Shown in pieces: positions 41,837 to 44,800 of a DNA stretch of 64,000 bases. The position numbers and the translations under genes are program-made. The first letter of the stretch is position 1. Each line of letters starts with the position of its first letter. Location: assembly GCA_950295325.1 (NCBI GenBank), contig OX485808.1, positions 17,566,527 through 17,630,526 on the forward strand, given 5' to 3'. Source of the DNA: Polytrichum commune. Lineage: Eukaryota; Streptophyta; Polytrichopsida; Polytrichales; Polytrichaceae. The notes beneath the pieces are model-generated. The model saw only the letters and a list, made by a program, of their open reading frames with translations. It did no database searches and was not told the DNA's origin.

Positions 41837-44800
41837 ATGCAGAAAATCACAGATGAGAAGATGAGGACAATGACAACGGCAAAGAAGATGATGATAGTCA
41901 TGATGTTCATGCTGGAACAACACCTCGCCCCAGCTATGGCTACGGCTACGGCTGTGGCTAATCGTCTCCCGGACTACGAATGCGGTGCACGCATGGACGC
42001 ACTCACGAGCCCTCCAAACGAACCATGTCAGAACACAACGGCACGATCTGCGCTTCTCACTCCGTGTTTCCTGTTTCTGAATCACAGTTCGAGATTGCCA
42101 TCTGCGGAATGCTGTGCGGCTGTTCTGGATGTCTGGCCGCTCTACCCAGCTTGCTTCTGCTTCCTCACCTTCTTCCCGCCCATGGTGCCCGACGGAGGAG
42201 ACCGGTCTGCTTTCCATGCTCGCCCGCTCTTGTGTAATCTAACCGGTGACCTATGTGGAGTTTGCCCCGCCTTGTTGTTTCCGAGCAGCAATCACGGTAC
42301 ATCGATGTCCTCATGGCTCTTAACCCCATATGCCTTTCTCGAATGAAAGCGTCCACATGAGTGATTAAGTTTGTCTTGCACAAAGAATGTAGAATAGTGC
42401 TTTACGGAGGGCCAAAATAGAAGCGAAGAAAAAGCAATGAAGATTTGTGGAAGCAAGATCCATCAATTGCAATTGTGGTCCTATCTTTAGTATCCACTAC
42501 GTAAAGTATAGCACCATTCATGTGTTCATAGTAAATATTGCGGTCACTGATTCTATAATCAACGATGAATCACGATCGAGATGAGCTTTTTGAACAGATC
42601 ATTAACCAATATTCATCGCCTACATATTATCAGATTACATACGTCGCCCATTGCCATTCTTCTTCGCACGCTAGGGCACACATTAAGAATTCAACCAGTT
42701 ATCATTAATGATTACATTAGGCAGAGCCTGAAGTGCGTAGGATTGGTTTTCATACTACTCATGTTAAATCGGCTGGCACAACATGACTGATTTCAAATTG
42801 TGATGACAGATTGTTCTTGCACCATGTTTGATCATTAGAGTGGTAGATGCGTTAAGCTCATTTTGGATGATACGCAGGAACTCGATCGCGCAAGATTGAA
42901 TCACTTGTTCTGGGCATCAGCATCTCTTCTGCAATTATACTCCTCGTCGGTGGCCTCCTCTCAATTCTATACTGGAGGTCGACAAAGATTGCCAGATTCT
43001 ACGAAATGAGGAAATTTTCCCAGCACTTCAACGGTAACTTATGGCAAATACATCTCCTGTGAAGCACTTGCACATCTCTTCAACTTGGCGGCATCTGGTG
43101 GCATTGTGGTGTAAATTACCCGCCGTGTCCGGATATATCTCAAAAAGGGTAGCCCTTTAGTTCCACAGTTTTGCCATGCCTGAATTGCCCAGTTCAACAT
43201 GATTGAAGTTCACCCAATCACAAATTGGAGCTCCTCATAAAATGTTAAGCATCGGAAATGATGCACACATTTGAGAGAAATGTACTAAAAGCATGATACT
43301 GCTAAGCTCTACCTGCCACTTATCCTAGGCAAGAGAATATTTTGGCCAATGGCATGCTATGATTTTCAAAAAACGACGGTTTGAGTCTTAGTTCCGCAGT
43401 CAGGTCCCCATGGAACCGGGCATCATTTTTTTTTTAAGATTAAAATGAGTGAGGGAGCCTCAGACTTATTAATGTTATGAATGCACCGGTGTTCCTCCGT
43501 CCCTTTTGTGTACTGAGACATTTGTAATTGTAGCTTGACTAACAAATTGCAATGCTTGCATTTGTGTAGATATTGAAGGGAAGCCTACGATCTTCCCATA
43601 TGGTGTGCTCAAGGTGTCGACAAAGAACTTTGACCCCAACAACAAGCTCGGAGAGGGTGGATTTGGTTCTGTTTTCAAGGTGCTCAACCCCCTTCATGTG
43701 ATTCTTAACATCTTGCACAACTATATGCACCAGCTTGTATATAAACTAAAAGATTCTATACTGAAACGCACAACACGAAAACTAAAGGCTTACTAAGGTG
43801 AGCATGTGTTTGGATGAGCATGGACAAGCCGATTCGCACCCTATACCTTCTCCAAAGGCAAACCCATGGGTTCCCACATGGTTAGTTGGAACCATTTAGT
43901 TCACTCAAACGCCCCCCACTTATATGATTGGGTGGGGCTCAATTAGAAGGATAGACAACCACCTGAGGCCCAGGTCCAAGAGTCAAATGCAACACACATA
44001 GAAACCAACATAGACACCTTGCCATCATAACACTCACCCTTACGGGACCCACATAAACACACAACATACAAATATACAACTTTCAACCAACAAAGGTCTC
44101 TTGCCTCTTCCCAAGGGACCACTTCCGACATAAGGCGGTAGCACTTGTCCCATAACTCTGCTCCATTAACTCGTTTCATGTTTGAATATGAACTCTGAGA
44201 CCTGGCCTCTAATTGGACAACCAAGGTGAAGCGTCCCTCATTCACACCAACACAAACGGTTGGCATCTTTCTTTCGGATTGGGTGCTCCATAATGATAGG
44301 TTGCACCAAAAATCAACTTCTCAAGAAGCTCACCCATGCTAGCAGTAATTCCAACCTTAACATGAATTAAGACTGAAGTTAAGCCAACCCTATATTAACC
44401 AACAATATGTACCTCAAAATGCCTAAGAATGTTAATTTTAAATAAAATCCATTATTAGACCATGGCTCCTGAGAATCCTTGAACTCTCATTGGTTGTCAC
44501 ATGTCCCCACTTTAGGTTTATATGAGGGTAGTTTTGGATCACAACCCATAACATCGTCAATGAATGAAACATCTACATGAAATCCCACATGAATAATGTC
44601 GGCCGGGATTGTAGATTTTTTTTCCGCTCCGGTTCTTGAAGGGTAAGCTTGATGGAATTGCAACAAGATTTTGGGTTTACATTAAAGACTTGAAACTTTG
44701 GGCTATAGTCCATGGACTCCGCTATGGTCTCATCCAAAAAGCAGGGTGCCATGGTCATTTAAGAGCCTTGGCCTAATGCCTATGCTGTAAACAGGCCCTA

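Follow-up and report, generated by a model that had tools for sequence, protein, structure and literature searches.

Introduction

The closest described counterparts of the gene reported here are the DUF26 receptor kinases. According to PMC6368629, these arose when a secreted DUF26 protein became fused with the transmembrane and kinase parts of an LRR receptor kinase, and the kinase-less PDLPs arose by loss; DUF26 kinases are reported in the same text as not found in bryophytes. The DUF26 system, as far as it is set out there, comprises secreted CRRSPs, kinase-less PDLPs and kinase forms, and the family described below, which is built on a lipid-transfer protein (LTP) domain, likewise has kinase and kinase-less membrane forms. 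The DUF26 kinases (CRKs) resemble the genes of this family in having a small cysteine-rich ectodomain, one membrane span and a RLK/Pelle kinase. They differ in the ectodomain itself, which is DUF26 in the CRKs and LTP_2 here.

With respect to the ectodomain, the closest known proteins are type-G (GPI-anchored) LTPs and xylogen-like proteins, which share with the family the LTP_2 profile, the 8-cysteine order and the CC-x12-CxC spacing. Type-G LTPs carry a GPI signal, whereas in the family, by reading, the ectodomain is followed in 6/6 members by a membrane span and then by a charged cytosolic part or a kinase. Two extra invariant cysteines also set the family apart from the type-G and xylogen-like proteins.

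Signaling by LTPs has been considered in the context of elicitin and LTP recognition. PMC4947988 puts forward receptor-like kinases as the route by which LTPs loaded with lipid act; in this proposal, a lipid-loaded LTP fold would signal via a membrane kinase, as we suggest below. In the scheme given there, the carrier and the receptor are separate proteins, whereas here they are a single polypeptide. No lipid-transfer receptor kinase was found among the literature matches listed (titles and abstract openings), and an earlier report is possible. The words "kinase" and "transmembrane" have 0 occurrences in an LTP review (PMC5052319), and "lipid transfer" has 0 occurrences in a receptor-kinase review (PMC10868138). 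The receptor class as such is known; an LTP ectodomain on such a kinase was not found described and is, within the literature searched, new.

Results

Structure of the receptor gene

The window, by which we mean the whole stretch of 64,000 nucleotides of Polytrichum commune DNA that was analyzed (C6:17566527-17630526; the genome comprises 408 Mb in 64 contigs), carries on its + strand a seven-exon gene at positions 41837-47991 (Table 1). All six introns are of the GT-AG type (6/6), and exons 1-6 end in phases 1, 1, 0, 1, 2 and 0, respectively. Exon 1 is read from the ATG that we infer to be the start codon. Judged by its hydrophobic stretch alone, the N-terminus of the window copy is probably a weak signal sequence: its best 10-mer has a hydropathy of 2.13, compared to 3.14 and 3.29 in two kinase relatives described below. 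Outside the N-terminal region, each of the three kinase genes (3/3) has one 19-residue stretch with a hydropathy above 2.0.

A first-pass annotation of the window had proposed that exon 1 is spliced in phase to the membrane exon through a donor located after AAT-CAC-G. This donor indeed fits the acceptor located before position 42878, with the expected GT and AG present and both sides in phase 1. The annotated segment ended at 43033, with no mention of the TGA found in exon 7; the gene runs on to 47991.

Table 1. Parts of the receptor gene (positions in the window) and related loci elsewhere in the genome.
Feature	Position	Strand	Description
Exon 1	41837..42296	+	residues 1-153 and one further base: signal-sequence-like N-terminus followed by LTP_2-type ectodomain; 460 nt, phase 1
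Ectodomain past probable signal sequence	41960..42295	+	ten cysteines, Pfam match
Intron 1	42297..42877	+	581 nt, GT-AG, phase 1; donor GT at 42297, acceptor AG at 42876-42877
Exon 2	42878..43033	+	156 nt, phase 1; membrane span and juxtamembrane part
Membrane span	42904-42960	+	19-residue stretch, mean hydropathy 2.49
Exon 3	43570..43679	+	kinase domain start, glycine loop GEGGFG
Exon 4	44845..45055	+	VAVK lysine, N-lobe
Exon 5	46468..46702	+	HRD (RD type) and DFG motifs
Exon 6	47069..47219	+	APE motif, C-lobe
Exon 7	47629..47991	+	kinase end and C-terminal tail; TGA inside; frame ends with TAA at 47989-47991
Premature in-frame TGA, codon 471	47716-47718	+	in last exon, upstream of kinase subdomain XI
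L011	C3		full seven-exon LTP-membrane-kinase gene, open frame
L013	C2 near 44.04 Mb		full seven-exon LTP-membrane-kinase gene, open frame
L012	C7		LTP exon, phase-1 junction to membrane exon with short tail
L014	C2 near 50.3 Mb		LTP exon, phase-1 junction to membrane exon with short tail
L015	C5		LTP exon, phase-1 junction to membrane exon with short tail

The ectodomain belongs to the LTP_2 family

When compared to Pfam, the window ectodomain scored 22.7 bits with LTP_2 (E 1.1e-4), 0.7 bit over the cut-off of 22. The same cut-off was passed by the ectodomains of all five related loci (25.3, 36.9, 30.8, 30.3 and 33.6 bits), i.e., by 6/6 family members with the window copy included. Since the five relatives pass, the LTP_2 assignment of the window domain is firm, the window score alone being narrow. 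The two Pfam matches of the window ectodomain up to E 10 included no LRR, malectin or DUF26. The profiles proposed for comparison at first pass gave a mixed outcome: LTP_2 was passed, Tryp_alpha_amyl reached 17.8 bits, under its cut-off of 21.7, and SPARK, a model whose inclusion in the library is unconfirmed, was absent among the two matches. The Tryp_alpha_amyl cut-off was exceeded in 4/6 family exons. A search of the genome for the LTP_2 family retrieved 30 matches, four of the six family exons among them; the absence of the window and C3 (L011) exons from these matches is a sign that these two ectodomains are divergent.

The window domain contains ten cysteines, at residues 49, 64, 77, 92, 93, 106, 108, 133, 140 and 143. 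In the six-row alignment of the family there are 17 invariant columns, ten of which are cysteine in all six members; the ectodomain of L013 has an eleventh cysteine besides the ten shared ones. The order C, C, CC, CxC, C, C, typical of plant lipid-transfer proteins and recognized at first pass, is kept in 6/6 members. The count of eight cysteines given with it did not hold, nor did the choice of the last one: upon alignment with three xylogen-like 8-cysteine repeats from this genome, C143 (in the CPALL motif) takes the place of the canonical eighth cysteine, and C49 and C140 (the latter in the DLC motif) are extra. The family shares the spacing CC-x12-CxC with the 8-cysteine repeats of the xylogen-like gene in this genome. 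With the two additional cysteines, a fifth disulfide would be the natural expectation. Each of the six ectodomains carries two to four N-glycosylation sequons. A three-column insertion in the alignment is private to the window copy and may disturb a cavity.

A profile made from the six rows was compared to solved structures and matched 15 chains up to E 10. Eleven of them, the best nine included, are nsLTPs or lipid transfer proteins, and the best one, 6frr (E 1.1e-4), is the sole chain at E 0.001 or better. The chains ranked 10, 11, 14 and 15 are unrelated, and none is an inhibitor or albumin. Together with the LTP_2 scores (22.7 bits for the window, 25.3-36.9 for the relatives), the 6frr match bears out the initial assignment of exon 1 to a lipid-transfer-type domain. 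A search of solved structures with the window domain alone found 0 sequences, and a single-sequence AlphaFold2 model of this domain had a mean pLDDT of 39.1, uninformative on the fold.

The genome also contains, at G000:C5:44663287-44666541, a 469-aa frame with three LTP_2 domains (140.8 bits over three stretches) linked by proline/alanine-rich linkers and followed by a hydrophobic stretch at the end, i.e., a triple xylogen-like protein.

The kinase domain and its nearest relatives

The kinase matches Pkinase with 158 bits (E 4e-46). Its motifs (Table 1), identified by reading, are those of an RD kinase. The best solved relatives (60 best matches) include SYMRK, BAK1 and BRI1. Exon 4 of the window gene is 86% and 83% identical to the matching stretches of L011 on C3 and L013 on C2, respectively. 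In a search of the genome with this exon, the same two loci matched at 84% and 78%, and the next loci at 64% or less among the matches listed (150 of 1248 candidates scored); when exon 4 of the C2 relative was used as a query, the next locus was at 68% (150 of 505 candidates scored).

Six loci lie at 62-64% over exon 4, and five of these were examined, with C6:8457386 left out. Five of their frames of at least 90 aa were scanned, none of them from L018. One locus of the five examined, L016, carries a malectin domain (PF11721, 2e-13). A sub-threshold LRR stretch was found at L020. At L019, one frame has a sub-threshold VWA stretch and the other is without a match, and the single frame scanned at L017 has no Pfam match. 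The expectation, stated at first pass, that near kinases carry LRR or malectin ectodomains is thus borne out at L016 and, below threshold, at L020. Neither LRR nor malectin is matched in the window ectodomain, which is the difference from the receptor kinases of the LRR-VIII type (LRR with malectin), whose kinase sequence is probably alike. Presumably, the window kinase belongs to this LRR-VIII group, given the sequence features that we associate with it and the ectodomains of the near kinases of the same genome. As part of the joint explanation given below, and with the same somewhat favorable estimate, we regard it as an RLK/Pelle kinase whose relatives carry LRR/malectin ectodomains.

The VWA-like stretch at L019 (G000:C2:47173900-47183800, + strand; PF00092, 16.6 bits with a cut-off of 23.8) lies in an upstream frame together with a hydrophobic span and is possibly another unusual receptor ectodomain.

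A family of six genes in the same genome

A search of the genome with the protein encoded by exons 1 and 2 revealed five further loci that match the LTP part, with E from 4e-12 to 1.2e-6. Searches with three different family proteins all led back to these six loci, with E of at most 1.2e-6, 2.6e-10 and 3.7e-9, and the next frames followed at E 0.047, 0.0011 and 1.1e-5, respectively. These family counts cover one plant genome. Pattern matches in viral contigs (15) and in bacterial and archaeal genomes (158) included 0 relatives in either set, which fits a plant gene.

Two of the five loci repeat the whole arrangement. L011 and L013 encode 554 and 585 aa, respectively, in frames that are open to the end, with GT-AG at 12/12 introns and phases identical to those of the window gene. 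In L011, exon 5 has a possible alternative acceptor six bases upstream; the shorter form was used. Because the seven-exon gene with identical phases is repeated at two loci, the joined LTP-kinase protein is no misreading, and the layout of ectodomain, membrane span and kinase put forward at first pass is supported. The alternative named at first pass, a kinase that starts elsewhere, is countered indirectly by the same exon order and phases in both open-frame relatives. At the other three loci (L012, L014 and L015), no kinase exon was matched within the 9.9-kb stretches examined. The phase-1 junction between the LTP and membrane exons is thus present in 6/6 genes, and the kinase in 3/6. Two of the three kinase-less genes have near-identical tails, GAPPGGAF and GAPPGGTH.

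The ectodomains of the three kinase genes are 35-42% identical; since they are this poorly conserved, a common ligand for the three kinases is not implied. In the kinase part, non-synonymous divergence among the three genes is 0.18-0.21, and synonymous sites are at or near saturation in 3/3 pairs. As judged from these sequence distances, the three kinase genes are old and constrained.

An ectodomain tree was built from the six family members and three xylogen-like repeats. As can be seen from the support of the dividing branch (99/97), the family is separate from the repeats. The three kinase members are not grouped in the best tree and come together in 17% of 200 bootstrap trees. Trees constrained to group them were not rejected (p-AU 0.355), and long branches lead to these members; it follows that both kinase gain and kinase loss are compatible with the tree.

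DUF26 itself has eight matches in this genome, in frames of 132-195 aa (neighboring exons being outside the comparison). Such short-frame matches fit the absence of DUF26 kinases from bryophytes that is stated in PMC6368629.

The kinase of the window copy is truncated

The window copy lacks a complete kinase domain. At the TGA in exon 7 the protein ends with codon 470, without subdomain XI, and L011 and L013 are open through the matching position. Given the premature TGA, the window copy probably cannot signal alone. Most likely it is kinase-dead, either a gene in decay or a decoy able to bind and pair without signaling. Apart from the stop, the gene is intact: all seven exons and their splice sites are kept, and the frame continues past the TGA.

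Private changes were counted in the window copy versus L011 and L013. In exons 3-6 (234 sites), there are 16 in the window copy versus 15 and 14 in the two relatives; in exon 7 before the stop (29 sites), 3 versus 5 and 1; in subdomain XI past the stop (30 sites), 8 versus 1 and 2; and in the tail (57 sites), 11 versus 8 and 7. Comparison of subdomain XI with exons 3-6 yields a Fisher p of 0.04, in a contrast that was chosen after the counts were seen. When all sites after the stop are compared to the pre-stop sites of exons 3-7, p is 0.14, which is not significant. Taken from sequence counts as small as these, there are hints that the stop is real and the region beyond it relaxed. Since the wider contrast is not significant, the stop may be recent, or it may be a sequencing or assembly error.

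Other features of the window

A 5S rRNA match is located at positions 2991-3090 (+ strand). It scores 51.4 bits, over the gathering score, and covers 100 bases of the 120-base model; it may be a degenerate copy. An extensin-like frame with SPSPVY/KSPVYSPSP repeats is found at positions 22106-22564 (+ strand), with no Pfam match up to E 0.01. Positions 25927-32846 (- strand) hold frames matching PreP_C, Peptidase_M16_C and Peptidase_M16, i.e., a presequence-protease-like gene. Directly downstream of the receptor gene, at positions 48610-49394 (- strand), there are frames with hydrophobic stretches, recognized by eye, that may be exons of a gene for a small membrane protein.

Discussion

Taking its parts jointly, we consider it somewhat probable that the window gene is one of three single-pass receptor-like kinases of the RD type that sense a hydrophobic molecule with an LTP_2 ectodomain. 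Sensing of a hydrophobic ligand is a plausible function for a domain with this sequence. The small helical ectodomain would bind a hydrophobic molecule inside a cavity. Once this cavity is occupied, or the loaded domain docks onto a partner receptor, assembly at the membrane would be altered such that the kinases can phosphorylate each other. By analogy with the DUF26 route, the gene probably originated when an LTP exon became linked to the membrane-span and kinase exons of a receptor kinase that was already present.

The 8-cysteine fold serves also in protease inhibitors and storage proteins. The ectodomain could thus be a rigid, cysteine-stabilized scaffold for protein contacts, with a peptide or a cell-wall partner and no lipid sensing, a proposal that we find possible, if doubtful. 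Most family exons (4/6) exceed the cut-off of Tryp_alpha_amyl, a Pfam family described as including inhibitors, storage proteins and LTPs, and the two extra invariant cysteines and the low ectodomain identity point the same way. Against it, the solved chains matched by the family profile are lipid-transfer proteins (11/15) or unrelated (4/15), with no inhibitor or albumin among them, and the CC-x12-CxC spacing matches that of the xylogen-like 8-cysteine repeats. We consider it highly improbable that exon 1 forms a secreted LTP gene of its own, terminating at 42346, and that the kinase exons go with another first exon. The exon 1 frame is indeed open to a stop at 42344-42346, and an intron-retaining transcript would yield a secreted form; yet the order of LTP exon, phase-1 intron, membrane exon and kinase exons is repeated at two loci, and the LTP-membrane junction at three more.

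As for the state of the window copy, we give a little less than an even chance to its being a pseudogene, in which the last exon acquired a nonsense mutation that inactivated the kinase and the remainder is now in decay, with L011 and L013 as the working receptors. The in-frame TGA inside the kinase agrees with this, as do the private changes of subdomain XI (8 versus 1 and 2), bearing in mind that the contrast giving p of 0.04 was picked post hoc. However, the seven exons, splice sites and post-stop frame are all kept, private changes are not in excess upstream of the stop, and the contrast over the whole region (p 0.14) allows for a recent stop or for a sequencing or assembly error. The same lack of acceleration upstream of the stop would suit a decoy or regulatory pseudokinase that binds ligand and partner and tunes the two intact receptors. 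A stop in the last exon is, from the structure of the gene, not expected to cause nonsense-mediated decay, and there are sister genes that share the ectodomain and near which no kinase exon was matched. Nevertheless, we hold such a regulatory role to be unlikely: the numbers of changes are low, and saturation of the synonymous sites precludes dating of the stop.

The LTP_2 receptor kinases that we favor can be placed in a wider scheme, which we offer tentatively and consider rather improbable when all of its parts are taken together. In it, there would be a receptor class with the lipid-transfer domain built into the kinase, so that carrier and receptor, proposed to be separate proteins in flowering plants, are a single chain. 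One genome would contain ordinary LTPs, membrane LTPs without a kinase, LTP kinases that are intact and a truncated decoy, as a second, independent layout of the CRRSP/PDLP/CRK kind, built on a lipid-binding fold and sensing wax, a fatty acid or a sterol.

It is an open question how extracellular lipids are sensed by plants, and another how LTPs signal once they are loaded. If the proposed explanation is true, a receptor with a built-in lipid-binding fold would make both of them directly testable. It would also be a second case of the evolutionary route taken by DUF26 kinases, and one in which a single genome still retains the kinase-less form.
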